A DNA stretch of 64,000 bases from positions 1,732,501 to 1,796,500 of the forward strand of contig NZ_AP018338.1 in the NCBI RefSeq assembly GCF_002356415.1. The letters run 5' to 3'. The position numbers were made by a program, and so were the translations under genes. This DNA is from Streptococcus oralis subsp. tigurinus (GTDB taxonomy: Bacteria; Bacillota; Bacilli; Lactobacillales; Streptococcaceae). This document shows, piece by piece, positions 4,273 through 57,074 of this stretch. The notes below the pieces were generated by a model, which saw nothing but the letters and a program-made list of their open reading frames with translations, made no database searches and had not been told where the DNA came from. Position 1 is the stretch's first letter, and every line of letters starts with the position of its first letter.

Positions 4273-5733
4273 TTATTTGGAAATCTCTTTCAGCATATTA
4301 TCGATATGCTGAATTGACTTTTCACGTCCGAGTAAGAAAATGGTGTCTGGTAATTCTGGTCCATGCATTTCACCTGATACAGCAATACGAATCGGCATGA
4401 AGAGATTTTTTCCTTTGATACCTGTTTCTTTTTGAACTGCTTTGATTTGTGGGAAGATGTTTTCTGTCACAAATTCATCGTCTGTCATTGCTTCTAGTTT
4501 CGCTTTGAAGGCTTCTAGAACAACCGGAACGGTTTCTCCTGCCATGACCTCACGCTCAGCGTCTGTCAACTCTGGGAAATCTGAGAAGAAAAGATCTGTC
4601 AATGGAACGATTTCATCCACTGACTTCATTTGTGGTTTGTATAGTTCCACCATTTTTTCAGACTTGTCAGTCAAACGCCCTGCTTCTTCTAAGTAAGGTT
4701 TAGCCATTTCAAAGATAGTAGCAAGTTCTGCTTTCTTGATGTAGTCGTTGCTCATCCAGTCTAGTTTCTTCTGATCAAATGCAGCTGGTGACTTGCTGAG
4801 ACGATTTTCATCAAAGAGTTTAATCAATTCCTCACGAGAGAAAATTTCATCTTCGCCACCTGGATTCCAACCAAGAAGGGCGATAAAGTTAAAGACTGCT
4901 TCTGGCAAATAGCCTTTTTTACGGTAGTCTTCTATAAACTGAAGGGTATTGGTGTCACGTTTAGACAATTTTTTACCTGTTTCAGAGTTGATGATCAAAG
5001 TCATGTGACCAAACTCTGGTGCTTCCCAACCAAGAGCCTCATAGACCATGAGTTGTTTTGGAGTATTAGCAATATGGTCATCACCGCGGATAACGTGAGA
5101 GATTTGCATATCGTGGTCATCGATCACAACGGCAAAATTGTATGTTGGGTAACCATCTTTCTTTTGGATAACCCAGTCACCACCGATGTTGCCACCTTCA
5201 AACTCGATATCACCTTTGACCATATCATGCCATTTGTAGATACCAGACTCGTTAACAGCCAAACGAACAGTTGGGATGATACCAGCTGCTTCACGTTCTG
5301 CGACGTAAGCTGCTTTTTCTTCTTCGCTCATGCCAAGATATTCATTGATGTAACGTGGTGTTTCGCCAGCTGCTTCTTGGCGTTCGCGCTCAGCTGCCAA
5401 CTCTTCTTCTGTAACGTAAGATTTGTAGGCTTTTCCTTCGGCTAGCAATTGGTCGATGTATTTTTGATAGAGTTCCAAACGCTCTGATTGGCGATAGTTT
5501 TCATGAGTTTCTGGACTTTCATCCCAGTCAATCCCCAACCAGCGAAGATTTTCAAGCTGTGAACGTTCCCCATCTTCGACATGGCGTTTACGGTCAGTAT
5601 CTTCGATACGAATGATAAAAGTTCCACCATGATGGCGTGCGTAAAGGTAGTTAAACAATGCTGTACGGGCATTTCCGATGTGTAGTAGTCCTGTTGGACT
5701 TGGTGCGTAGCGTACGCGGATATCTTTTGACAT
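4273..5733 (-). CDS. gltX: glutamate--tRNA ligase
   Basis: Class I aminoacyl-tRNA synthetase of 486 residues that charges tRNA-Glu and, in Firmicutes lacking GlnRS, also tRNA-Gln for later amidation. The N-terminus has the [16 protein letters not shown] block (residues 9-24) with the HIGH-class HIGN motif, and KKLSKRD (about 254-260) is the KMSKS loop. The length is full for the family. The start follows a GGAGAAACT ribosome site. It is the first gene of a two-gene unit with the deaminase and has its own promoter between itself and the pgi fragment. No T-box leader is visible. Confidence 0.96.
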
Positions 5734-5808: not shown

Positions 5809-5831
5809 TGTCTACGAATAAAGAGAGTAAA

Positions 5832-5856
5832 AAAGAGTGGACAAGCCACTCTTTTC
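5832..5856 (-). terminator. terminator after the pgi 3' fragment
   Basis: Perfect 10-bp stem AAAAGAGTGG / CCACTCTTTT with a 5-nt loop; on the minus strand it runs into six T. It is evidently the native pgi terminator, kept beside gltX. Confidence 0.85.
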
Positions 5857-5861
5857 TTTTA

Positions 5862-6339
5862 TTATAGACGTGCGTTAAGCTCTTTGCTCAATTCTTCAAA
5901 TCCTGGTTTTCCAAGAAGGGCAAACATGTTGCGTTTGTAAGCTTCAACACCTGGTTGGTCAAATGGGTTGATGGCATTCAAGTAACCTGAAAGGGCGATA
6001 GCCAATTCGAAGAAGTAGATAGTGTATCCAAGAGTGAAGGCATCTTGCTCAGGAAGAGTTACGTACATGTTTGGTACGTCACCGTCAGTGTGGGCAAGAA
6101 GAACACCGTCAGTTGCTTTTTTGTTAACGAAGTCAACGTCTTTTCCCTGAAGGTAACCAAGTCCATCAAGATCTTCTTCCAAAGTAGGGATAATCACGTT
6201 CTTACGTGGTTTGTCAACACGGACAACTGTTTCAAACATGATACGAGTTCCTTCTTGGATAAATTGACCCAATGAGTGTAGGTCTGTTGAGAAATTAGCT
6301 GAAGTTGGGTAAATCCCTTTTTGGTCTTTTCCTTCTGTT
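5862..6339 (-). pseudogene. pgi: pgi 3' fragment (native copy remnant)
   Basis: The minus strand encodes the last ~157 codons of glucose-6-phosphate isomerase, matching residues about 293-449 of the complete pgi at 11910-13259. Homology starts near 6339 (frame [15 protein letters not shown]) and runs to the normal stop. The two copies differ at many third positions and several residues (RIMFETVV against [14 protein letters not shown] against [14 protein letters not shown] against GAELNARL), so this is not a recent tandem duplicate. No start codon or ribosome site precedes it, and the N-terminal isomerase domain is absent. From memory, the fragment resembles the pneumococcal Pgi C-terminus more than the intact copy does, suggesting it is the original gene cut off when the sorbitol operon arrived. 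Confidence 0.9.
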
Positions 6340-6451
6340 CAGGCACCCCTTGTGGATGCATCTGCTGGAAATTCCCTTGCACTGACTGGCTAGTTTGATT
6401 GACTTGCCAATCAACCACTGCGTCATCTATTTTTTCTAATTTAGACCCAGA

Positions 6452-6474
6452 AGCCTGGACTTTTGGTCCAGGCT
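6452..6474 (-). terminator. possible srl operon terminator
   Basis: Perfect 9-bp stem AGCCTGGAC / GTCCAGGCT with a 5-nt loop, about 60 nt after the srlB stop. The minus-strand tail (TCTGGGTCTAAATTAG) is not a clean T-run, so termination would be inefficient. Confidence 0.45.
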
Positions 6475-6534
6475 CTGAATCAATTTTTTAGACTTTTATT
6501 TTTCTAAATTGCTTGATTTGAAATTTTATTATGG

Positions 6535-6921
6535 TTAAGCAGTTTCAAAAATCTGAATGGTAGAATCTTTATCAATTACTACCGCTTGATCTGCTACAAC
6601 ATGGAGTGTACCAGGAAGGCTCCCCTCTTTTGAACCATCAAAAGAAATCGTGATATGTCCCAGTCCAGTTAAATTTTTTTCTACTACATTTCCTACGGAA
6701 CTAATCGAATATTCCTGATTATCTACCACCAGCTTGCCACCTTCTAGTATTGAACCTAGCAGATTTTTGTTATCAATCTTAAAACAATACTCTGATAAAT
6801 CTTCTGGTGCTTCTTCTCCAAATAAAATGAGCATATTGGCATCTTGAATCATATTCTGAGCTTCAGACCCTACTTGAATTACTTTAGTTTCAAAAATTTT
6901 CTTCATCTGATTTCTATTCAT
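6535..6921 (-). CDS. srlB: PTS sorbitol/glucitol transporter, EIIA component
   Basis: This 128-residue protein has the size and signature of glucitol-specific EIIA: a compact beta-rich cytoplasmic domain with the GLGHITISFDG stretch (about 85-95) and the conserved LPGTLHV segment (about 103-109). It would accept phosphate from HPr and pass it to the EIIB domain of SrlE. The first ATG (MNRNQMKK) follows AGAGAAAGT; a second in-frame ATG five codons on is possible. It is the last gene of the srl operon, 82 bp after srlE. Confidence 0.88.
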   Translation of the reverse strand: MNRNQMKKIFETKVIQVGSEAQNMIQDANMLILFGEEAPEDLSEYCFKIDNKNLLGSILEGGKLVVDNQEYSISSVGNVVEKNLTGLGHITISFDGSKEGSLPGTLHVVADQAVVIDKDSTIQIFETA

Positions 6922-7003
6922 ACTTTCTCTAATTTGTCATAAACTTAGGCTTATAGATAAGTTTAACATAATAGTTCTCTGTTTTCAGGCATCTATCAAA
7001 GGT

Positions 7004-7984
7004 CTACTGATAAAGACCAATACTAGCTATCCAAGCAACTAGCACCCGCGGAACACCATTGAGAAAGCGTGAATAAAGTACCGAAGGGACACCAACCTCA
7101 ACTGTTTCAGCCTTGGCTTCAGATAGGCCGAGTGCTACAGGAATGAAATCACAACCGTTTTGAGTGTTGATAGCAAATAAAGCTGGCAGAGCCATTTGGG
7201 GCGGAATAGTCCCTTTTCCGATTTCGACTCCAATTAAAGTTCCAATAATCTGACTAATAACAGCTCCGGGACCTAACAAAGGAGATAGGAATGGTAAGGA
7301 ACAGATAAAGCCAATTAAAACGAGTCCCCAGATGTTCCCCGCTAGGGGAACCATTAATTTTGCCAGCCAATTTCCAACACCAGATCCTTGAATAACCCCA
7401 ATCAGCAAGGAAACAAAGGCCATGAAAGGAATTATTGTATTGAGCATTGTTTGGATGGCTTCACGAGCAGCCTGGTTGAAAGTTGCAACGACCTTACCAG
7501 CCCCCATCCCAATTCGTGCTACAATACTTGTTTCAGCTTTTTGCTCTGTAATTTTTTTACTAGTATCGTAAGTTGGCTTTTCAGTTACCACAGTTGTCGC
7601 TTTTTCGTCTTCATTAGCAGCAGAAATTTGATTAAGGCCAACTGCTGACACATAGATTTCCTCGGTTATATATTGAGCTAGAGGCCCACTTTTCCCTGTA
7701 GCAACAATATTTATTGTAGGGATTCCCTTTTTAGGATAAATACCACAGCGAAGAGTACCGCCACAATCCACGATTGCTAAAGCAATTTCCTCATCTGGGA
7801 TAGAAGTTTTAAACCCATTAACAGCTTCCATACCGGTCAAATCAGCAATTTTATCTACAATATCTGGCTTTTCTCCGCCGCCAGTAATATAGATGAATTT
7901 ATGCTTAGCTTCACTAGGTGTAATGACCAAAGGTCCTCCGAAACCGCCATTTCCTTTAACAACTTTTATACTCTTATATGACAT
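7004..7984 (-). CDS. srlE: PTS sorbitol/glucitol transporter, EIIBC component
   Basis: 326 residues from the preferred ATG (MSYKSIK), which has an AGAAAGAG ribosome site; an upstream in-frame ATG at 8008 would overlap the srlA stop and is unlikely. The N-terminal half is the EIIB domain, with [15 protein letters not shown] (about 73-87) containing the likely phosphocysteine. A linker rich in T, E and K follows, then a membrane EIIC2 domain with about four hydrophobic segments, including [20 protein letters not shown]. With SrlA and SrlB it forms the complete glucitol permease that imports sorbitol as sorbitol-6-phosphate. It begins 13 bp after the srlA stop. Confidence 0.92.
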
Positions 7985-7997
7985 AATTTCACTCTTT

Positions 7998-8543
7998 CTA
8001 TAAATCAAATGTTTTACTCAAGGTAACACCTTGCTGTTTTGCTACATAAGCAGTTGTAAAATCGGTTACCCAACCACCTACAAAGTTCATGACAAGCCCA
8101 ACAAGCATGTAACGAATGGCTAAGTCCATTTGACTTAAACCTAAAGTTTGAATTCCTGTCGCAATTCCCATCCATACAAATAATTCCCCAGGATTGATAT
8201 GTGGAAATACACCATTTGAAGTATGGCAAAACTGCATCTGAGCTGCTACAAAACTAGGTTTATAATATTCTGGTAAGAAACGTCCCATACTGATTGCCAT
8301 CGGATTTCCCAGCATAAAAGCTGAAATGAAAGGTAAAATCATATACCGGCTAACAGGATTTTTGGCAGAAATCTTAGCCAAGGAATTGACCTTCTCTTCT
8401 CCCAAGAAAGCGATAAGGGTATTCATTGCAATCAATAGCATCAAGACAAGAGGTACAATATTTGTCATCCAGCTAATAAAGGTTTCTCCACCTAATTGGA
8501 AGAGTTTCATAAAACTCTCTGCAAATTTTGTAATGTGATTCAT
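7998..8543 (-). CDS. srlA: PTS sorbitol/glucitol transporter, EIIC component
   Basis: 181-residue polytopic membrane protein of the glucitol EIIC (GutA/SrlA) family. Hydrophobic segments lie at about 27-50, 68-85, 120-140 and 143-165. The conserved [13 protein letters not shown] and [19 protein letters not shown] blocks are typical of this permease half. It forms the channel with the C-domain of SrlE. The start overlaps the gutM stop by 4 bp, showing translational coupling. Confidence 0.92.
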
Positions 8544-9037
8544 AAGGAACTCCTTTTCTTATTTTTTTTAAATAACTGTTTAATAGATAATTGTAAGTAA
8601 TTCGCATAAAAGCCGAATCCCAGAAAAGAATCAGATGAACTTGTCTCTTTCTCAATACCTGCCTCATGCCAAAGATAGACTTTTCTAGCATCTTCTATGG
8701 CTGATTGCATCAACTTATTTTCTTTTCTCACAAGAGGATTATACTTGTCAAAATAATGGATGTCTTCTCCAACATAATCGTCCATATTTTGAAAACGCGC
8801 TAAGATTGTGACTCCTTGCATTTTGCTAGCTTTAAGAACCCGACCGTTTTCATCAACCGCGAACATGACAATCGTACCGGATTTTATTCTTCCGGACTTT
8901 CTGCCAATCGCTACGCGCCCCAGTTTTCGGAGCATCGTATAGGTCTTATTGAAGTCTTTGAGTTGCTGCCAGCCGAGGAACATTTGAAATATATAAGCTG
9001 CCATGACAAATACAGCGAAAATTATTAGCGAATTCAT
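8540..9037 (-). CDS. gutM: glucitol operon activator GutM
   Basis: 165 residues with an N-terminal membrane segment (about 4-21) and the GutM-family core (GWQQLKDFNKTYTMLRKLG then GRKSGRIKSGTIVMFAVDENG). In enteric bacteria and S. mutans GutM is an accessory activator of sorbitol operon transcription; how it acts is poorly defined. The ATG overlaps the gutR stop (TAATG), and its own stop overlaps srlA, so it sits tightly coupled in the middle of the operon. The C-terminal tail is Lys-rich. Confidence 0.85.
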   Translation of the reverse strand: MNSLIIFAVFVMAAYIFQMFLGWQQLKDFNKTYTMLRKLGRVAIGRKSGRIKSGTIVMFAVDENGRVLKASKMQGVTILARFQNMDDYVGEDIHYFDKYNPLVRKENKLMQSAIEDARKVYLWHEAGIEKETSSSDSFLGFGFYANYLQLSIKQLFKKNKKRSSL

Positions 9038-10902
9038 TAAAATACTCCTTTGCTCTTAGAAAATGATAGAAACTCTGTCTCTGTTTCTACAGCCCTCAAT
9101 GCTTCTTTTAGAGAAGGCTCTCCTGCAATTCGAAAAATGTCGTCATACAATTCCAGCAATTCACTTTCCATTTTTCTTTCAATTTCTGAGGGTATGGCGA
9201 CTAGAAAGATAAATTCAATCCATTCATCTCCTTTTTGATAAGGCTCTTCTAGTTTTCCAAACATTAAAATAGTCTTTGCATAACCCTGGTTAATTGTATG
9301 GGGGAAGGCAATTCCTCCACCAAAAATGGTTGATTGCTTTTTCTCCCTATCAATTATCCGATTTCTAAAACCTTCATCAATCATCTGAAGTTTCTCTAAC
9401 TCTGAAATCATATTTAGCAAGTATTGCTGATAGGTTTTTTGGGGGCTCAACCGAAGAAAACGTAAGCTGACTGTTTCTAGATTTTTTTGATGAAAAGCAT
9501 TGGCCCTCTGCCATTCTTCCTGCAGCCATTGATCATCAAAAAGATGATTAACTTGAATGACTGGAGATTTAGAATCTTTATATTTTAGAGGAACTGTCGT
9601 AAAAATCGCGAAATAGTCCTGATTTAAATCCACATTAAAATCCTCTTCAGAATACTGAGTAATGTCTACATCATTTCCAAGGACTCGTCTGAGTTGCTGA
9701 ATAATCATCGCAGCAGTTCCTCTTCCTGTTGTGCAAACTACAGCTATCTGCTTGCGATAACCCTTAACAGCAGAATTTTGCTTTCTTAAAATCATTTCAA
9801 AATACAAAGCCAGATATCCGATTTCAGATAATTCCATTTCAGAACCAAAAATTGCAGATAGTTCTTCTCCAGCTATTTTTGCCATTTCAAAAGCAAAAGG
9901 ATATTGAGTTTGAACCTCGCCATGAAATATATCATTAGCTTGCACATGGAAAATCAGTCGATTGATTAAGGGGCCTAGATGAGATTTGATTTCTTCAAAT
10001 AATTCTTCATCATCAAAGTGAACCAACATTGTTTCTTTGACTTTCTTGACAATCCCTTGAAAAATATTTGCAAGCTGTTCAGATTGATAAGATGTCTTGC
10101 TTAAAGTGTCAATAAAACGGACATTAAACGGAAAACACAAAAAGTCTATCTCAAACTGACTGAGAGAAATCTTATAAGTCATCTCAATATGATAGATTAA
10201 TTTCTCAGCTAAAGGTGTCTCTGTTAAATCATTCCTATAGTAAGGAATAGGACAATTCAACACTCTAGATGTATGAATACGCTCCACCATAATTGAAATG
10301 GTCTTTCGAAGGAGTTCCTGTGTTTCTTTAGGGATTTTATAGTCCTGGACTAGCGTCTCCAGAAAAGAAGATGTTGCCTCAGTGAGTGTCCTTCCTTCAA
10401 AGTAAGGAGCCACTTGGTGAATATAGAGCAAGCGCAAATTCAGCTCGCTCCCCAAGACCTCCAGCCCACGGTTGGGCTTTCCTGAAATAGTGATAGAGTA
10501 ACTCTCTGCCAAAGATTTTACTTGTTTTAAATCCTTATTAAGGGTACTTCTACTAACACCTACTTCCTCAGCCAAGTCGTCAATAAGAAGAGGGGAGGTT
10601 GACTCAATTAAACGTTTTAGCAAATAGGCAATTCTTTTACTGGAAGAATTGAAGTCACTCTCCTGTTTTAAACTACCAGATAAAATCCTTTCCAACTCTG
10701 TATAGTCATACACTTCTAACATTAACTGATCATCTTGTGCGATAATCTGGATATTAGGAGCCAAAACATCATTTAATTGTTGGATACTCTTTTGCAAGGT
10801 TTGCAAGCTAATATCCAGTTCTGAGCGCATATCTACCAAGGAATAAGTTGGCTGTGAGACCATTTTTTCTAAAATGTTATACCATCGATTTACTAAGGTC
10901 AA
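9037..10902 (-). CDS. gutR: PRD-containing transcriptional regulator of the sorbitol operon
   Basis: 621-residue BglG/MtlR-type regulator. In order: N-terminal winged-helix/HTH (about 1-85) and a second HTH (DDLAEEVGVSRSTLNKDLKQV, about 110-130), two PRD domains (about 175-385) with conserved His (IEMTYKISLSQFE, LIFHVQAN), an EIIB-Gat-like domain with VVCTTGRGTA (about 388-397), and a C-terminal EIIA-like domain with GGGIAFPHTINQGY (about 525-538) carrying the phosphorylatable His. Such proteins activate their operon when PTS phosphorylation signals substrate and low glucose. The gene lies inside the operon it probably controls, 23 bp after srlD and coupled to gutM. Confidence 0.9.
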   Translation of the reverse strand: MTLVNRWYNILEKMVSQPTYSLVDMRSELDISLQTLQKSIQQLNDVLAPNIQIIAQDDQLMLEVYDYTELERILSGSLKQESDFNSSSKRIAYLLKRLIESTSPLLIDDLAEEVGVSRSTLNKDLKQVKSLAESYSITISGKPNRGLEVLGSELNLRLLYIHQVAPYFEGRTLTEATSSFLETLVQDYKIPKETQELLRKTISIMVERIHTSRVLNCPIPYYRNDLTETPLAEKLIYHIEMTYKISLSQFEIDFLCFPFNVRFIDTLSKTSYQSEQLANIFQGIVKKVKETMLVHFDDEELFEEIKSHLGPLINRLIFHVQANDIFHGEVQTQYPFAFEMAKIAGEELSAIFGSEMELSEIGYLALYFEMILRKQNSAVKGYRKQIAVVCTTGRGTAAMIIQQLRRVLGNDVDITQYSEEDFNVDLNQDYFAIFTTVPLKYKDSKSPVIQVNHLFDDQWLQEEWQRANAFHQKNLETVSLRFLRLSPQKTYQQYLLNMISELEKLQMIDEGFRNRIIDREKKQSTIFGGGIAFPHTINQGYAKTILMFGKLEEPYQKGDEWIEFIFLVAIPSEIERKMESELLELYDDIFRIAGEPSLKEALRAVETETEFLSFSKSKGVF

Positions 10903-10925
10903 CTCTCTTCCTCACCTTCATTTTT

Positions 10926-11726
10926 TTAACCGCGAGTTTTCCCTCCAGCAATATTTGTAGTGACTCCAGTTATATAGCTAGAACGATCTGAAATATAGAA
11001 TGCTACAAGATCAGCTACTTCCCGTAGTTTACCACTTCGTCCCAAAGGAGTTGTTGAAGTTGAAGCATAACCAGCTCGAATATCTTCTACCGTCTTTCCA
11101 CGGGTATAAGCAAGAGCTTCCTCATAAGAAAGAGTTCGAAGCCCCGTAGCTTCCATAATTCCTGGAGCAATTCCAACCACACGTACACCATGCTTACCCA
11201 GCTCTTTCGCCCATGAACGAGTGTAACTATAGACTGCTGCTTTTGTTGCAGCATAGGCACTTTGTCCTTCAGAACCTTCCAAACCTGCTTCTGAAGCCAT
11301 GTTCACAATTACACCTTTTCTATTTTTCACTAAAATACGTCCTACTGCCTGACTAACCAAATACAAACCTTTTTGATTAATCATTGTTACTTTTTCAAAC
11401 GTTTCATCGTCTAACTCGTAAGGACCTTTAGGATTTTCTGCATCAATTAATAATCTGGGAACATTAATCCCTGCATTATTGACTACCGCATCAATATTGC
11501 CAAATCTTTCAACTATTTTGGCAACACCCTCTTCTACTTCAGAGCGAGAAGTTACATCAACTTTTACAAATAATAGATTCGGGTGACGCAAATCGTTGTC
11601 GCTAAGATCAAAATTCGCTACATTGACTCCTAATTCCAGCAATTCTTCAACGATTGCCTTACCGATCCCAGATGACGCGCCAGTCACAAGAACTGTTTTG
11701 CCTTTTATGTTTAACCAATCATTCAT
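10926..11726 (-). CDS. srlD: sorbitol-6-phosphate 2-dehydrogenase
   Basis: 266-residue short-chain dehydrogenase that oxidises sorbitol-6-phosphate to fructose-6-phosphate with NAD. The N-terminal Rossmann motif TGASSGIGKA (about 15-24), NNAG (about 83-86), and catalytic Ser and YAATK (about 155-159) are all present. The conserved N-terminal block NDWLNIKGKTVLVTG and the C-terminal ITGVTTNIAGGKTRG match the SrlD/SorD subfamily. I prefer ATG 11726, which has GAGAGG seven bases upstream; the longer frame would need a TTG. It is the first gene of the operon; its product enters glycolysis where Pgi, encoded just upstream, also acts. Confidence 0.92.
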   Translation of the reverse strand: MNDWLNIKGKTVLVTGASSGIGKAIVEELLELGVNVANFDLSDNDLRHPNLLFVKVDVTSRSEVEEGVAKIVERFGNIDAVVNNAGINVPRLLIDAENPKGPYELDDETFEKVTMINQKGLYLVSQAVGRILVKNRKGVIVNMASEAGLEGSEGQSAYAATKAAVYSYTRSWAKELGKHGVRVVGIAPGIMEATGLRTLSYEEALAYTRGKTVEDIRAGYASTSTTPLGRSGKLREVADLVAFYISDRSSYITGVTTNIAGGKTRG

Positions 11727-11758
11727 TTTGATACCTCTCAAATTTTATTTACAAGGCA

Positions 11759-11787
11759 ATTATACAGCGCTTTCATAAAAGAATTAA
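11759..11787 (-). promoter_or_regulatory. srl operon promoter with overlapping cre-like site
   Basis: Minus strand: -10 TATAAT (11764-11759) with 17-nt spacing from a poor -35 TTAATT (11787-11782), as expected for an activator-dependent promoter. The sequence TGAAAGCGCTGTAT (11775-11762) matches the CcpA cre consensus TGNAANCGNWNNCA at all fixed positions except the last two, and overlaps the -10, fitting glucose repression. Confidence 0.65.
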
Positions 11788-11847
11788 GACACTCTTTTTT
11801 ACACTTTTAAAAAAAATAATAAACTAATTAAGAGGCTTGTACTAAAA

Positions 11848-11872
11848 ATCCACAAGAAATGAACTTGTGGAT
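11848..11872 (-). terminator. pgi terminator
   Basis: Perfect 9-bp stem ATCCACAAG / CTTGTGGAT with a 7-nt loop, followed on the minus strand by TTTTTAG. It separates pgi from the srl promoter. Confidence 0.8.
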
Positions 11873-11909
11873 CTTTTTATATTCTAAATGAACTCAAAGC
11901 ATATGAGAA

Positions 11910-13259
11910 TCAAAGGCGTGCATTCAACTCAGCACCCAGCTCTTCAAAGCCTGGTTTCCCAAGAAGAGCAAACATGTTTTTCTTATAAGCTTCAACTCCA
12001 GGCTGGTCAAATGGATTGATACCATTCAGGTAGCCAGAAAGAGCAATAGCCAACTCAAAGAAGTAAATAGTGTAGCCCAAAGTGAACTCATCTTGCTCAG
12101 GCAGTGTCACAAACATATTTGGAACTCCACCATCAGTGTGTGCTAACAGCACTCCATCTGTAGCTTTTTTATTGACAAAGTCAACATCTTTTCCTTGCAA
12201 GTAGCCAAGACCGTCCAAGTCTTCTGCCAATTCAGGAATCAGCACATTTTTGCGAGGTTTATCTACACGGATAACTGTTTCAAAGAGGATACGGGTACCT
12301 TCCTGGATAAATTGTCCCAGAGAGTGCAAGTCTGTTGAGAAGTTAGCTGAAGTTGGATAAATCCCTTTTTGGTCTTTCCCTTCTGACTCACCAGCCAGTT
12401 GCTTCCACCACTCAGAGAAGTATTGCAGAGATGGTTCATAGTTAGCTAGAACTTCTGTCAGATAACCTTTACGGTACAAGATATTGCGTACAACTGCATA
12501 TTGATATGCTTCATTTTCAGCCAACTTATCAGAAGCATAAGCCTTGCGAGCAGCATTTGCTCCTTCCATTAACTTGCTGATATCAGCTCCTGCAGCTGCG
12601 ATTGGCAAGAGCCCCACTGCTGTCAATACTGTAAAACGACCACCTACACTATCAGGCACTACAAAAGTATCCCAGCCATTAGCATCTGCTTCAACCTTAA
12701 CTGCACCTTTAGCGCGGTCTGTAGTTGCGTAGATACGTTGGTTAGCTTCTTCTTGACCGTACTTCTTAACCAAGAGTTCTTTGAAGACACGGAAAGCAAT
12801 AGCCGGTTCAGTTGTTGTACCTGATTTAGAAATCACGTTTACTGAGAAATCTTTGTCTGATACATAGTCTACCAAATCAGCCAAATAGCTTGAAGAGATA
12901 GAGTTTCCAGCATAGAGGATCTGAGGTGCCTTGCGTTCTTCCTTTCTTTGCAAGTTTACAAATGAATTATTCAAGAAATCAATAGCTGCACGAGCTCCTA
13001 AATAGGAACCACCAATACCGATTACGATCAATACCTCACTATCAGATTGGATTTTAGCAGCAGCCTTTTGAATACGAGCAAATTCATCTTTGTCATATTC
13101 TTCAGGTAAGTTCAACCAGCCAGTCATTTCTGCCCCAGGACCTGTACCATTTCGCAGAGCAGAATCTGCTGCAGTCACTTGAGGCTGCATATAATCTAGT
13201 TCATGTGGTGCAACAAATTTATCTAATACTTTTGAATAATCAAATTTAATATGTGACAT
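11910..13259 (-). CDS. pgi: glucose-6-phosphate isomerase
   Basis: 449 residues from ATG 13259, preceded by GGAGGAATATT; longer in-frame starts lack a ribosome site. It interconverts glucose-6-phosphate and fructose-6-phosphate in the cytoplasm. Signatures include [12 protein letters not shown] (substrate phosphate loop region), [14 protein letters not shown] (about 143-156) and the C-terminal [16 protein letters not shown] with the catalytic Lys region. It is the only complete pgi in the window. It differs from the stranded 3' fragment at 5862 and is followed immediately by the sorbitol operon, the arrangement I recall from S. mutans, so this copy was probably imported together with srl. Confidence 0.95.
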
Positions 13260-13287
13260 AATATTCCTCCAAAATTTCTTCTCTTCT

Positions 13288-13316
13288 ATCATAACCCTTA
13301 CCTTAGATTTTTTCAA
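13288..13316 (-). promoter_or_regulatory. pgi promoter
   Basis: Minus strand: -35 TTGAAA (13316-13311), 17-nt spacer, -10 TATGAT (13293-13288), about 30 nt before the pgi ATG. Confidence 0.65.
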
Positions 13317-13411
13317 GTTTTTATACTGAATTTTTCCAAATTTTATCATAATTTAAACATTTGCGTAAAAAATGTTACAATATTAAAATTTGAACGAAAT
13401 AAGACAAAAAA

Positions 13412-13431
13412 ACGACTAGGTTTCCAGTCGT
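13412..13431 (-). terminator. terminator of the amidotransferase gene
   Basis: Stem ACGACT / AGTCGT, 8-nt loop, followed by seven T on the minus strand. The upstream arm starts inside the stop codon. Confidence 0.75.
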
Positions 13432-14120
13432 TATAATTCATTCAATAAATACTCAAATAATTCTAAGTTGCCATCTTCTTCATTGACCAAAAATTCTGGA
13501 TGCCACTGGAGACCAATAATACGGTGCTCATCAATAGATTCGATTGCTTCAACAGTTTGATCACGTGGATCCACAGCCGTCACGCGGAAATTGGGTGCCA
13601 AGTCTTTAATACTCTGACGATGTACTGAGTTAACCTGACTTTCTTTACCAAATAATTTAGACACTACACTGCCATCCACTGTCTCAATAGAATGTGAAGT
13701 CCCAAAAGGTAGACCTTGCCAATGACCTTCAATATCCTGATTGAGTGTCCCACCAAAAGCAACGTTGACAAGCTGAACGCCACGGCAAATGGCTAAGATT
13801 GGTTTGTTCTGACGCAAGGCTTCTTGTAGAAGAGCTAGCTCAAACTCGTCGCGAGCTAGGTTATAGTCGTCGCTATCAATTGTTTTTTCCTCACCATAAA
13901 ACTGAGGATGAACATTTTGTCCCCCAGTCAAGATGAGCTTATCAATCATTTCTACATAGTCATGGACAAGTGTCTCATCACCAACCGGAATGACCAAAGG
14001 AAGTCCGCCAATCTGACGAATACTTTCAGCAAATTTACAGGATACAGATGAGTGGATGTTTTTTCCTTCTGCGTCTACAGGACATAGGTTTGCCGCTACT
14101 CCAACAACTGTTCTTACCAT
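13431..14120 (-). CDS. class I glutamine amidotransferase / gamma-glutamyl-gamma-aminobutyrate hydrolase family protein
   Basis: 229 residues from ATG 14120 (GAAAGGAAG ribosome site). The triad is visible: nucleophile Cys in AICRGVQLVNVAFGG (about 109-123) and the His-x-Glu of LQWHPEF (about 205-211). This matches the PuuD-like peptidase C26 branch, which hydrolyses gamma-glutamyl amides; the substrate is unknown here and no synthetase partner is adjacent. In pneumococcus the same gene lies between pgi and patB, and that order is kept here. Confidence 0.8.
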   Translation of the reverse strand: MVRTVVGVAANLCPVDAEGKNIHSSVSCKFAESIRQIGGLPLVIPVGDETLVHDYVEMIDKLILTGGQNVHPQFYGEEKTIDSDDYNLARDEFELALLQEALRQNKPILAICRGVQLVNVAFGGTLNQDIEGHWQGLPFGTSHSIETVDGSVVSKLFGKESQVNSVHRQSIKDLAPNFRVTAVDPRDQTVEAIESIDEHRIIGLQWHPEFLVNEEDGNLELFEYLLNEL

Positions 14121-14257
14121 TACTGACTTCCTTTCGTTCTCCATTGATAATCTTATCTTATCACCCTTACCCACTCCTGTCTAATATGTATTTTTTAAGT
14201 CCGTGATAAAATTTTTTTATCAGAAAAAGTTGCCCAAAATTAGGACAACTTTTTTGC

Positions 14258-16024
14258 TTATTCAAAGACAAATTGATTATGGTACAGTTCGGAGTAAAAG
14301 CCTCCAAGCTTGAGTAATTCGTGATGATTTCCTTGTTCGATAACCTCACCATCCTTAAGGACAATAATCTGATCGGCATTGAGAATAGTTTTCAAGCGAT
14401 GGGCAATCACAAAGCTCGTTCTTCCTGCCACAATTGCCTCCATAGCATTTTGAATCTTGCTCTCTGTTACAGTATCCACGTTTGATGTTGCCTCATCCAA
14501 GATTAAGACCTGGGGATCCGTCATTAAGGTTCGAGCGATGGAAATCAACTGCTTCTGACCGGTTGAGAAGACGCTCTGGTCATCATTAATCAGAGTATCG
14601 TACTTATCTGGTAGACTTTCGATATATTCATGGATATGCGTAGCCTTAGCAGCTGCTTCTACCATCTCCTGACTAGCATCTGGCACACCGAAGCGGATAT
14701 TATCCCGAATCGTTCCACTAAACAAGACCGAATCCTGCAAGACAATCCCGACCTTGCTCCGCAGGCTGTCCAAGTCGTAGTCACGAATGTCTTTGCCATC
14801 AAAAGAAATGCTACCTGCATCCACATCGTAGAAACGATTGATGAGGTTCATGATGGTTGTTTTCCCCGAACCAGTCGGGCCTACAACTGCTATCATCTGC
14901 CCCTTAGGAGCTGAAATGCTAACATCTTTTAAAATCGGCTTGTCTGGCACATAAGAGAAATCAATGTGACTGATTTCAACACCTTCTCGCAATTCCGTAA
15001 AGGCAGGCGCATTTTGCGGACGAATCTCTTCTTCTGCATCGAACATTTCTTGGATACGATCCGCCCCAGTAAAGGCCAACTGGAGGCTCCCCCAACTCGC
15101 AGCCACCTGGATAATCGGCTGGTAGTACTGCTGAGAAAATTGGGTAAACATGACGATCAAACCTAGGGCTGTCGTTGTTTCGATACTTGGATCGTTCAGC
15201 AAGACCGCAGAACCTGCAAAAATAACGATGGCCGTATTGACCAAGCTCATCCCATTCATAACAGGAAAGAGGATGCCTGAGAACATTCTCCCTTTAAAGG
15301 TTGCCTTGCGCACGCGCTCATTTTGCTCCACAAAGCCTGCTACGATGTCGTCTTGAATTCCTTGTACGATAACAGCTTTCTGTCCAGAAATACTCTCATC
15401 CATGTAGGCGTTGAGTTTCCCAACCTCTTTTTGCTGGAGATTGGTGTACTTGCGGGCCATCTTCACGATGAAAACCAACATGAGAAAGGCCACTGGGGTG
15501 CTGGCTACTGTTATCAGGGCTAGCGTCACATTTCTTGAAAACATGACAAAAATCAAACCGATGTAAAGAGCAATATTGCTCATGACCTGAACTAGGCTTT
15601 CATTGAAGGCTTGAAGGATGTTATCCAAGTCACTCGTGAAGTGAGAAAGGATGTCGCCATCCTGATGGCGGTCAAAGAAAGAAACCGTCAAACGAGAGAG
15701 TTTGCCAAAGAGGCCCTTACGCATCTCATTTGTTGACTCAGCAATCACACGGGTCATCAAGGTCATGTAAATCAAACTGGATACCACTAGGGCGAGAACA
15801 ACCAGAGCTAAATTCAGCATCAGAGCTGACAAACTCTGCCAGGCTAGTTCGGAAGTTCCATTTTGATAAGCCAGAACTAGGTTAGCGAGCTCCGTCACTG
15901 CTTGACCTGAAAAAACTGGAAAGAGGGCTTGGGCAATCGTCGCAACTGCAACCATCAGAACCACAATGACAAAGGAGAACTTGTAAACTTTAAAATAATT
16001 CCAGAAAAATCGAACGGTTTTCAT
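14258..16024 (-). CDS. patB: ABC exporter half, fluoroquinolone-efflux PatB-like
   Basis: 588 residues from ATG 16024 (ribosome site GGAGG). N-terminal six-helix ABC exporter domain (about 15-310), then nucleotide-binding domain with Walker A VVGPTGSGKTT, a degenerate signature FSTGQKQ in place of LSGGQ, and a canonical Walker B LILDEATSNVD. Together with PatA it would form a heterodimeric exporter with one degenerate ATP site; in pneumococcus PatAB extrudes fluoroquinolones and dyes. Its start lies 1 bp after the patA stop, so the two are translationally linked. Confidence 0.88.
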   Translation of the reverse strand: MKTVRFFWNYFKVYKFSFVIVVLMVAVATIAQALFPVFSGQAVTELANLVLAYQNGTSELAWQSLSALMLNLALVVLALVVSSLIYMTLMTRVIAESTNEMRKGLFGKLSRLTVSFFDRHQDGDILSHFTSDLDNILQAFNESLVQVMSNIALYIGLIFVMFSRNVTLALITVASTPVAFLMLVFIVKMARKYTNLQQKEVGKLNAYMDESISGQKAVIVQGIQDDIVAGFVEQNERVRKATFKGRMFSGILFPVMNGMSLVNTAIVIFAGSAVLLNDPSIETTTALGLIVMFTQFSQQYYQPIIQVAASWGSLQLAFTGADRIQEMFDAEEEIRPQNAPAFTELREGVEISHIDFSYVPDKPILKDVSISAPKGQMIAVVGPTGSGKTTIMNLINRFYDVDAGSISFDGKDIRDYDLDSLRSKVGIVLQDSVLFSGTIRDNIRFGVPDASQEMVEAAAKATHIHEYIESLPDKYDTLINDDQSVFSTGQKQLISIARTLMTDPQVLILDEATSNVDTVTESKIQNAMEAIVAGRTSFVIAHRLKTILNADQIIVLKDGEVIEQGNHHELLKLGGFYSELYHNQFVFE

Positions 16025-16025
16025 T

Positions 16026-17732
16026 TTATTCCTCCTTTCCCTTTTGTGTTTCGTAGATTTCGCGGTAGACGGCATTGTTAGCTACCAAGTCTGCATGCCG
16101 TCCTTCTCCAATCAAGCGTCCTTGGTCCAAGACCAAAATCTTGTCTGCATGGACGACTGAACTAATCTTTTGAGCGATGATAATGGTTGTCGTCCCTTTC
16201 AGGTCTTTATTCAAAGCTTCCTGCACGAGTCTCTCTGACTTGGCATCCAAGGCCGAAGTCGAATCGTCAAAAATCAGGATACGGGGATTGCTGACAATCC
16301 CACGGGCAATCGACATCCGTTGCTTTTGTCCACCAGAAAAGTTGGTGCCACGTTCTTCGACCTGACTCTCAAATTTGTTTTCCATACGCCCAATAAATTC
16401 GCTGGCTTGAGCAATTCGTGCTGCACGTTCCATTTCTGACACGCTGGCATTGCCTTTTCCTTGACGAAGATTATCTGCAATGGTCCCGCTAAAGAGAATA
16501 GCACGTTGCAAGACGATGGAAACTGTTTTACGTAAGGTTCCCTCGCTGACGTCTCGAATATCCTTGCCACCAATCTTAATAGATCCCTCCTGTGGATCAA
16601 ACAGTCGTGGAATTAACTGAGCCAAGGTAGACTTCCCTGCTCCAGTAGCCCCAACCACACCGACCATCTGACCGGGCGCAATATCAAAGCTTACATTCTT
16701 CAGCATAGGCTCGTCATCATTGGGATAGGTAAAGGTCACATTTTTAAAAGAGAGACTTCCTTCTAACTCTTCATCTGGGAGATCTTTAAAGGTCATCGCT
16801 GGCTCGGTATCTAGAATTTCGCGGATACGACGCAAGGAAATCATGGCACGACTGACAGAATTCCCTAAAAATCCAACCATGATGATGGTAAAGATAATCT
16901 GGCTGAGATAGTTGATAAAGGAAGCAATCGAGCCCACTACAGACGGATCTGACTGAGCCATTCCAGCCACCAACCAGATAGAGAGGAAGACCGCTCCATA
17001 GCCGACTAGCATCATAACGGGTTCTATAACTGAGAAGGCATAACCGATATAAAGATTTTGGCCGAGAAGTTCATCAGAAACATCGGTAAATTTGTCAAAT
17101 TGTGCTTTTTCTTGTACAAAGGATTTGACCACGCGCACACCACGTAGATTTTCCTTGGCGATAGCATTGATCCGTTCAAGAAGGGTTTGAAACTTAGCAA
17201 ATCGTGGCCCCATCATTCCCATCATGATAGCAGTTAGTGCAAAGATTAGGAGCACCATGAGGACAATCACCCACCAAAGTGACGGAAGAGTGTGAACCGC
17301 CAAGATAAAGGAACCGATAAAGAGAAGAGGGAGACGGAAGAGAATTTGAAAAGCCATCATCACCACGTTCTGAATTTGGTTGATATCATTGGTCATACGG
17401 ACGACAAGGTTCCCCGCATTGAATTGCTCGATATTGGCATAAGAAAAAGTCTGGATCTTGCGAAAAGCGTCTTCACGAAGGTCCGAAGACACTCCTTGAG
17501 CAATGTAGGCTGCAAGTGTTACATTGACCCCACCTGCAACCAGACCGACTAGGGCTACTCCTATCAGCCAAGCGCCAATACTATAAATAGCCTCATTTTG
17601 ACCGGCCAGCAAAGCCTCTAACACCTCTTGCAAATAGCGCGGTTGCAAGAGCGAACTCGCAACCATCAAGCCTGTCATCATTAAGGATGCCAAGGCCTGC
17701 CATTTATAGGTTTTTATTTTTTTAATGAGCAT
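16026..17732 (-). CDS. patA: ABC exporter half, fluoroquinolone-efflux PatA-like
   Basis: 568 residues from ATG 17732 (AGGAGG). It has six predicted membrane helices, then an ATPase domain with Walker A VVGATGAGKST, intact signature FSGGQKQR, and Walker B LIFDDSTSALD in which the catalytic Glu is replaced by Asp. The complementary defects in PatA (Walker B) and PatB (signature) are the classic pattern of heterodimeric exporters. First gene of the patA-patB operon. The pneumococcal small gene recalled between patB and patA is absent here. Confidence 0.88.
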   Translation of the reverse strand: MLIKKIKTYKWQALASLMMTGLMVASSLLQPRYLQEVLEALLAGQNEAIYSIGAWLIGVALVGLVAGGVNVTLAAYIAQGVSSDLREDAFRKIQTFSYANIEQFNAGNLVVRMTNDINQIQNVVMMAFQILFRLPLLFIGSFILAVHTLPSLWWVIVLMVLLIFALTAIMMGMMGPRFAKFQTLLERINAIAKENLRGVRVVKSFVQEKAQFDKFTDVSDELLGQNLYIGYAFSVIEPVMMLVGYGAVFLSIWLVAGMAQSDPSVVGSIASFINYLSQIIFTIIMVGFLGNSVSRAMISLRRIREILDTEPAMTFKDLPDEELEGSLSFKNVTFTYPNDDEPMLKNVSFDIAPGQMVGVVGATGAGKSTLAQLIPRLFDPQEGSIKIGGKDIRDVSEGTLRKTVSIVLQRAILFSGTIADNLRQGKGNASVSEMERAARIAQASEFIGRMENKFESQVEERGTNFSGGQKQRMSIARGIVSNPRILIFDDSTSALDAKSERLVQEALNKDLKGTTTIIIAQKISSVVHADKILVLDQGRLIGEGRHADLVANNAVYREIYETQKGKEE

Positions 17733-53907: not shown

Positions 53908-54540
53908 TTTATCCCCCTCACAGTTAAGAAGTGTTCTATAGTTTTTTAGGCTCTATAATATTTGTAGTGGGTAAATCCCCTATGGATATTATGGAGCCTA
54001 TTTTGTTGCAGAAAAAAAGTTCCACATGACCTATAATGAAAAGCGACAAAACAACTCATTAGAAAGAATCATATGGAACCATTACATTTTATCACAAAAC
54101 TACTCGATATCAAAGACCCTAATATCCAAATTATGGATGTTGTTAATAGAGATACCCACAAGGAAATCATCGCCAAACTGGACTACGAGGCTCTATCTTG
54201 TTCTGATTGCGGAAATCAAATGAAGAAATATGATTTTCAAAAACCGTCTAAGATCCCTTACCTCGAAACGGCCGTATGCCTACTAGAATTTATGAAAAGC
54301 GTCGTTTCAAGTGCTATCATTGCTCGAAAATAGCGGTCGCTGAGACTTCTCTCGTCAAGAAGAATCATCAAATTCCTCGTATTATCAACCAAAAAATTGC
54401 TCAAAAGTCGATTGAAAAAACTTCTATGACCGACATTGCCCATCAACTTTCCATCTCAACTTCAACTGTTATTCGAAAGCTTAATGACTTTCACTTTAAA
54501 CATGATTTTTCTCGTCTTCCTGAGATTATGTCTTGGGATG

Positions 54541-56852: not shown

Positions 56853-57074
56853 GTATTAAATCAAAAGATATTTTCTAATCTTTTCTCAATCAGACAAAAT
56901 TTATCCAGAAGAATAGTTTAAGCAGGAAAAAAGCCCAGAAACGTTGGTTTCAGGCTCTATAATTTCTGTAGCGGGTAAAACCACTGTAGGAATTATGGAG
57001 TCTATTTTTTGTAGAAAAAAGCCCCATAAGACCTATAATGAAAAAGTGACCAAACCCTCATTAGAAAGAATCTT

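Follow-up and report, generated by a model that had tools for sequence, protein, structure and literature searches.

The window analysed here is a stretch of 64,000 nucleotides from Streptococcus oralis subsp. tigurinus (contig NZ_AP018338.1, positions 1,732,501 to 1,796,500) that holds a sorbitol operon (srl) between a complete copy of the core gene pgi and the 3' end of a second pgi. We conclude that this accessory operon very probably moves among oral streptococci in physical linkage with its own pgi allele and that it spreads by homologous recombination. The two pgi ends belong to two separate allele clades, the joint behind the operon is shared between genomes and encloses a piece of S. 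sanguinis DNA, breakpoints delimit the import, and the pgi remnants of the carriers are scattered among native pgi sequences. Natural transformation would be the presumed route of entry.

On the minus strand of the window, the gene order is an ABC transporter pair, gat, the complete pgi, srlD, gutR, gutM, srlA, srlE, srlB, the pgi 3' remnant and gltX. A preliminary description of this DNA had recognised a complete pgi, six srl/gut genes and the end of a second, diverged pgi with its own terminator beside gltX. Coordinates and profile matches confirm this layout, and the remnant is 79.1% identical to the 3' end of the full pgi over 474 nucleotides. Within each of 18 genomes with this arrangement the two pgi ends share 78.1-81.4% identity. 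An assembly artefact is unlikely because the window genome is a single 1.889-Mb contig and the same arrangement is found in 17 further genomes. The features that bear on the transfer are the following:

14258-16030, minus strand: abc2, an ABC-transporter gene (PF00664 and PF00005)
14666-14684: left end of the imported tract, a crossover within abc2
13431-14126, minus strand: gat, a peptidase C26 / glutamine-amidotransferase-like gene within the imported tract (PF07722 232.5 bits, PF00117 62.5 bits)
11910-13259, minus strand: complete pgi, the incoming srl-linked allele, 449 amino acids (NF010697 772.7 bits, cut-off 443)
8885-10819, minus strand: S. sanguinis-like segment (most of gutR and the start of gutM) within an infantis-like block
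6341-6405, minus strand: trapped start of the S. sanguinis post-pgi gene, between srlB and the pgi remnant (97% identical to the undeleted joint over 65 bp; 83% to the S. sanguinis-type locus L131 over 83 columns)
6330-6336, minus strand: microhomology of the original joint (AGAAGGA in the window; AGAAGGG in L124 and L119)
5862-6335, minus strand: pgi 3' remnant, 474 nucleotides with stop, codons 293-449 (157 codons) plus stop, in frame with pgi
5910-6126: right end of the imported tract, a crossover within the pgi remnant
5829-5857, minus strand: terminator-like hairpin of the original pgi, beside gltX
4273-5733, minus strand: gltX, the native neighbour, S. oralis-type

The distinction between two pgi alleles comes from a tree of the last 474 nucleotides of the gene (119 rows from 101 loci). 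All 26 full pgi copies of srl-bearing mitis- and sanguinis-group genomes form one clade with support 100. A native clade, again with support 100, holds the 18 remnants together with 45 of the 48 pgi copies from the srl-less panel; the remaining three, from more distant groups, are placed elsewhere in the tree. As the preliminary description anticipated, the two ends in the window are not sisters and lie in these separate clades. Joining the 12 full pgi copies in the mitis context with 25 native mitis copies is rejected by the approximately unbiased (AU) test with p = 3e-9, and joining five srl-bearing with five native S. sanguinis-type copies with p = 8e-11. Forcing the window pgi to group with native mitis pgi gives p = 0.18, identical rows being left free. 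Placing the incoming allele beside the native clade is not rejected (p = 0.60), and the free tree puts it next to mutans-group pgi; we therefore make no claim on the first donor. Together, the trees support the reading of the full pgi as an incoming allele and of the remnant as a member of the native clade.

We compared these alleles with a tree of rpoB from 60 selected genomes, of which 28 carry srl and 32 do not. On this tree the window genome stands beside G130, in a 16-genome clade that contains S. oralis subsp. dentisani Y_5914_11 (G131). Presence of srl requires 18 changes on the rpoB tree, 13 of them forced by starred branches, and shuffled labels require about 20; srl presence thus hardly follows rpoB. 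On the pgi tree of the same 60 genomes a single change suffices, from which it follows that srl moves with its pgi allele. A genome labelled S. pseudopneumoniae 1172 (L033, G172) groups with infantis-like genomes on rpoB, and its label looks doubtful.

The survey covered 284 Streptococcus genomes, with presence of SrlE called at E <= 1e-60. We detected pgi in 283 and SrlE in 68 of them. By hand count, 52 of the 68 have srlE downstream of pgi at a distance of no more than about 6 kb, eight do not, and the other eight are genomes without a pgi coordinate; srlE behind pgi was seen directly in 51 of the 101 loci examined. The order of pgi before the sorbitol operon, which the preliminary description gave for S. 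mutans, is found as pgi before srlD in S. ratti, S. ferus, S. macacae and S. devriesei. Among the matches listed, all 26 genomes with a pgi at least 96% identical carry SrlE, and the next genome stands at 91%. A full pgi, srl and a pgi remnant with identical start point occur in 18 of the 284 genomes, in two chromosomal contexts: the remnant precedes gltX in 12 of them (with an insert in G208) and does not in the six of the parasanguinis/australis context. The pgi 3' end adjoins gltX in at least 100 of the 284 genomes (96 contiguous, four with an insert; hand count), in line with the adjacency that the preliminary description gave for related genomes. Among these 100 listed genomes srl is carried by 12, and 88 have no SrlE match at the threshold; srl is thus not the majority state that would have spoken against the preliminary description. 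A chimeric pgi with incoming 5' and native 3' part and no srl, as left by a pop-out, was not seen among the matches listed of the 284-genome pgi search.

Several loci show other insertions near gltX. An insert of about 105 bp separates pgi from gltX in G101, G108 and G272. In G208 the gap between remnant and gltX measures 1,570 bp (L121 4377-5946) and holds an insertion-sequence-like pair of open reading frames with an integrase core (PF13333/PF00665) and weak transposase helix-turn-helix matches. Streptococcus sp. CSL10205-OR2 (L072) has an srl operon directly before gltX and no pgi within the 21-kb locus, which makes it another srl site at gltX.

The origin of the layout is recorded in the DNA between srlB and the remnant, which belongs to neither. 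In four genomes (L124, L126, L128, L129) this joint is undeleted and about 440 bp long, and a 299-bp part of it matches without a break, at 89-90%, the sequence that follows srlB in three srl-bearing genomes of S. sanguinis type, G188, G189 and G191. Positions 89-299 match the DNA just behind pgi in six srl-less S. sanguinis-type genomes at 87-93%; positions 1-93 are an interspersed repeat. The joint DNA breaks off in the first part of the following S. sanguinis gene, where pgi takes over from about codon 291. At this point the two otherwise unrelated sequences, the S. sanguinis downstream gene and pgi, share the short microhomology AGAAGGG; among random joins of the two sequences, 155 of 200,000 had a microhomology of 7 bp or more. 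The joint is shortened by about 240 bp in 14 genomes, the window among them, and the long form, which is nearest to S. sanguinis, was seen in its four carriers solely in the parasanguinis/australis context. This suggests an order from the S. sanguinis type through the parasanguinis/australis context to the mitis/oralis type, an order that rests on few genomes. The first 110 nucleotides of the remnants hold too few sites to place the first formation of the joint in a lineage. Judged from the shared sequence, the joint was apparently formed once, at the 7 bp microhomology, and then spread by homologous recombination. The founding piece was thus larger than the block of pgi and srl alone that had been proposed, as it also held the start of the S. 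sanguinis post-pgi gene. The repeat (93 bp; L124:6388-6480, present in many genomes) is found at the srl/native boundary in S. sanguinis-type and derived loci, and it may have been involved in placing srl there.

For the import into the window, its sequence was set against 16 natives of S. oralis type, of which 11 stand on the rpoB tree, and against seven srl-bearing infantis-type genomes of the mitis context, six of which are S. infantis SO or fall in its rpoB clade and one of which (G240) stands beside that clade. The left side shows 218 recipient-type sites up to position -1425 of the pgi start and then 235 donor-type sites from -1407, with zero exceptions, which puts the breakpoint 1.4 kb upstream of pgi. 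Upstream of it, identity to the seven infantis-type carriers drops to 65-85%. On the right side, donor-type sites are found at remnant offsets 50, 54, 188, 206 and 209 and recipient-type sites at 425, 455 and 464; beyond the remnant there are 33 recipient-type sites and two isolated donor-type sites at offsets 1031 and 1192. The imported tract would accordingly measure 8.5-8.8 kb and reach from abc2 to the middle of the remnant. With the right switch inside it, the remnant itself is mosaic: its first ~210 nucleotides came with the import and its last ~50 nucleotides are S. oralis-type, so that the stranded 3' end is not wholly native as had been assumed. Within the tract, the gat protein is 97-100% identical to that of the seven infantis-type srl-bearing genomes and 91-93% to that of S. 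oralis-type natives; infantis-type natives likewise reach 96-97%. Across the pgi-srl block the window shares 97.5-98.9% identity with the other 11 carriers in the mitis context. One segment departs from the infantis type, as 36 sites in 8885-10819 are sanguinis-type and two infantis-type, against 144 infantis-type and zero sanguinis-type sites in the rest of the block. This segment represents a second exchange within the imported tract.

The window is not the only S. oralis-type carrier, and the edges differ between them. The left breakpoint of the four others falls near -395, -523, -50 or -142, and some sites stray from the pattern. The remnant of L114 carries a donor-type site at offset 50 and that of L115 at offsets 50 and 206, with a recipient-type site at 119 between; those of L117 and L120 have none. 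SrlB of L114, L115 and L120 shows 92% protein identity to that of the window, as in the australis context, and L117 has the window type. The differing breakpoints and srlB types point to at least two imports into S. oralis-type genomes, and probably more than two. The full pgi protein is 99-100% identical to that of the window in 17 of the 18 carriers, with 0-8 nucleotide differences over the first 180. The remaining one, G007, has a native pgi over the first ~180 nucleotides, which places its left crossover within pgi itself. All these left crossovers lie in shared DNA (abc2, the region before pgi, the pgi 5' end) and are joints of later transfers, not of the founding event. Outside this series, the pgi-srl block of G192 (L137) is only 87-89% identical to the other 25, and native sequence resumes at its pgi stop; it is a separate import into a S. 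sanguinis-type genome.

Remnants that were merely carried along would form a clade of their own. The 18 remnants do not (AU p 1e-4, and 3e-4 after removal of the G225 copy, which is identical to a native allele), and remnant and native labels change 10 times in the 63-row tree. This scatter fits repeated right-hand crossovers inside the remnant. No shared DNA behind srl other than the remnant was found between the gltX context and the other context (window against L125). All 18 remnants are 474 nucleotides long, with no interrupting stop and no indel. Their private codons comprise 22 synonymous and two non-synonymous changes (the two being one shared change), compared with 32 and two in the 45 natives; alternatively, the codon data would reflect an extremely young age of the whole series. 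Eight srl-bearing genomes of S. sanguinis and cristatus type lack a remnant and have one pgi each. Across these, the right end is not constant. The return to native sequence comes right at the pgi stop in G192, 30 bp past it in three genomes, at +10/11 in three of cristatus type and 3.2 kb further on in G195.

Combining these observations, we propose the following course. The operon is located behind pgi in many streptococci, and in S. sanguinis-type strains the srl-linked pgi allele would have replaced the native pgi, with srl directly behind. A fragment that reached slightly into the next S. sanguinis gene would then have entered a relative, its left end recombining by homology and its right end being joined illegitimately at the 7 bp microhomology near codon 291 of the resident pgi, whose last 157 codons were left. 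From then on, full pgi, srl and pgi 3' piece could enter any streptococcus with a pgi regardless of the downstream DNA, because the 3' piece supplies the right-hand homology, and homologous recombination would have carried the unit into parasanguinis/australis-, infantis- and oralis-type genomes. The import into the window would have replaced about 8.6 kb, from abc2 to the middle of the remnant. More tentatively, with somewhat less than even confidence, we consider that the unit acts as a portable cassette free of any recombinase, with a complete core gene on the left and a truncated copy on the right, which any relative with the gene could accept at whatever place the gene lies while keeping a working copy. 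The truncated copy would stay native in form since each transfer crosses over within it. A nineteenth genome, G155 (L163 4001-11580), carries a full pgi followed by an srl operon of another type, then a transaldolase/fructose-6-phosphate aldolase gene (PF00923) and finally the last 62 codons of pgi. We rejected it as a product of the same event, as its srlE is 86-88% identical, its remnant starts at codon 388 and 7 of 189 nucleotides differ from its own full pgi. A remnant of independent origin next to another srl operon hints that such a layout has formed more than once.

The simplest alternative is the one proposed in the preliminary description, a single import in the window's own lineage in which donor pgi and srl directly replaced the 5' part of the native pgi. 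The S. oralis type of the last part of the remnant and of the gltX side agrees with it, and two of its elements stand, the full pgi as incoming copy and the remnant in the native clade. The replacement cannot be assigned to this genome, since the same joint is present in two chromosomal contexts, shortened by an identical ~240-bp deletion in 14 genomes from several lineages and undeleted in four more, and since it arrived in the window within a longer tract whose left breakpoint lies well upstream of pgi and whose right end leaves a mosaic remnant. We regard the single import as very unlikely. Cargo gain by gene replacement was right in kind and misplaced in time and place, as one founding joint was followed by repeated homologous transfer. 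Vertical inheritance from a group ancestor with pgi, srl and pgi remnant, lost in most lineages, draws on the common pgi-srl linkage (52 of 68), and an old pgi-srl unit has probably been lost in some lineage. As an account of this locus it has hardly any credibility: pgi allele and srl presence agree with each other and both conflict with rpoB (1 against 18 changes), S. oralis-type genomes show sharp breakpoints, and the near identity of the block among mitis-context carriers contrasts with the drop in identity to the infantis type upstream of the breakpoint.

Full copy, cargo and truncated copy are also the layout expected from Campbell-type integration, in which circular DNA with srl and part of pgi yields a full hybrid pgi and a truncated copy. 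Such integration predicts a native 5' part in the full pgi, which is seen only in G007 and not in the other 17 carriers, and it leaves the S. sanguinis gene piece at the joint unexplained; we give it very little weight. An integrative mobile element with a recombinase targeting pgi would account for one site being used in many species, and the insertion sequence of G208, with its integrase-core transposase between remnant and gltX, might be seen in its favour. No recombinase was found among the minus-strand genes of 5862-14684 (of the overlapping plus-strand open reading frames one was scanned and had no match), the left ends vary among carriers, and the right ends differ in remnant-free srl-bearing genomes (G192, G195, cristatus type). 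The site-specific recombinase and constant ends that define such elements are thus absent from what was scanned, and we consider this origin extremely improbable.

Some points weigh against our own interpretation of repeated homologous transfer. The panel of native genomes was picked by hand from listed coordinates and is not random. Pgi 3' ends recombine among natives, which makes 474-nucleotide trees weak, and some of the scatter could stem from later conversion of remnants instead of transfer. Likewise, later erosion of the flanks after fewer imports could be a partial source of the breakpoint differences. Right crossovers are marked by few sites: the remnant of the window has five donor-type and three recipient-type sites, those of L114 and L115 have one or two of donor type, and those of L117 and L120 lack donor-type sites. 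The microhomology was read from an extant relative that resembles the actual donor at about 90%, and two adjacent bases differ. Finally, identical tracts would result if large DNA entered by conjugation or transduction and then underwent homologous recombination.

All genes of the operon itself are open in the window. Its features are:

11848-11872, minus strand: terminator-like hairpin between pgi and srlD (the program listed the plus strand only; a short T run follows on the minus strand, read by eye)
11760-11775, minus strand: candidate catabolite-responsive element (cre) before srlD that overlaps a TATAAT-like -10, no more than a loose match to the cre consensus
10926-11726, minus strand: srlD, sorbitol-6-phosphate 2-dehydrogenase (NF004817 443.3 bits, cut-off 304)
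9037-10902, minus strand: gutR, probable operon activator regulated by the phosphotransferase system (PTS), from operon position (best NCBIfam match NF053736 67.3 bits, below cut-off 130)
8540-9037, minus strand: gutM, activator-like protein (NF007592 76.8 bits, below cut-off 148)
7998-8543, minus strand: srlA, sorbitol PTS IIC (NF049923 306.7 bits, cut-off 150)
7004-7987, minus strand: srlE, sorbitol PTS IIB (NF049924 531.5 bits, cut-off 400)
6535-6921, minus strand: srlB, sorbitol PTS IIA, a clear homologue (TIGR00849 115.6 bits, E 1e-33, below cut-off 189.55)

Membership in the glucitol/sorbitol PTS is supported by IIC, IIB and the sorbitol-6-phosphate dehydrogenase, which exceed curated cut-offs; IIA (SrlB), GutM and GutR are recognisable at scores under theirs. 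SrlD would yield fructose-6-phosphate, the substrate of Pgi, and the linkage of pgi and srl therefore makes metabolic sense. S. mitis is described as sorbitol-non-fermenting in the part of one source used here (PMC12451636). Carriers may be under selection for sorbitol use. Elsewhere, the window contains two copies of the Streptococcus small RNA Srn266 (RF02822) at 53949-54060 and 56953-57062.

The locus offers a natural series of cargo gain by gene replacement, with a remnant-free S. sanguinis type, a first illegitimate joint, a deletion and a run of transfers whose crossovers could be mapped. It points to a way in which genes of metabolism can pass from one species to another although the genomes differ in their neighbouring genes, and without the machinery of mobile elements. 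If this is true, new abilities can spread without jumping genes, the broken old copy being the place of exchange. In these streptococci pgi can mislead as a phylogenetic marker. The papers listed in searches on sorbitol and pgi in streptococci, judged by titles and the start of abstracts and with subscription journals mostly outside the coverage, include none that describes the arrangement, and a search on homology arms found nothing. We would regard the locus as a variant on the known theme of core-gene-linked cargo spread by recombination, in which the vestige of the replaced gene as homology arm would be the new part.

The closest relatives in layout are the sorbitol operons of S. ratti, S. 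ferus, S. macacae and S. devriesei, in which pgi is followed by srlD, gutM, srlA, srlE and srlB in the same order. These loci differ in that no pgi remnant is seen in them and in that the listed proteins are 54-90% identical to those of the window; their gutR falls below the 60% identity display limit. In pneumococcal capsule exchange, the neighbouring core genes pbp2x and pbp1a travel along with the locus. Capsule cargo and linked core genes are likewise exchanged jointly via homologous recombination in the flanks; PMC3537446 and PMC4380333 concern this exchange. The capsule flanks are both intact shared genes, whereas the right arm of the pgi-srl unit is a truncated duplicate from the first insertion, and transfer is therefore independent of the downstream neighbour. 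Transformation-generated merodiploids of S. pneumoniae (PMC3784515, in part) are similar in that transformation yields a partial duplication involving an essential gene. They are long tandem duplications at repeats, unstable in a 107-kb case, in contrast to the short cross-species partial copy found here. Homology-facilitated illegitimate recombination, with homology at one end and illegitimate joining at the other as outlined in part of a further source (PMC3240628), fits the origin of the joint with its 7-bp microhomology. The streptococcal product differs in its later history, as it would have spread between species by ordinary recombination, with the leftover gene piece as an arm.

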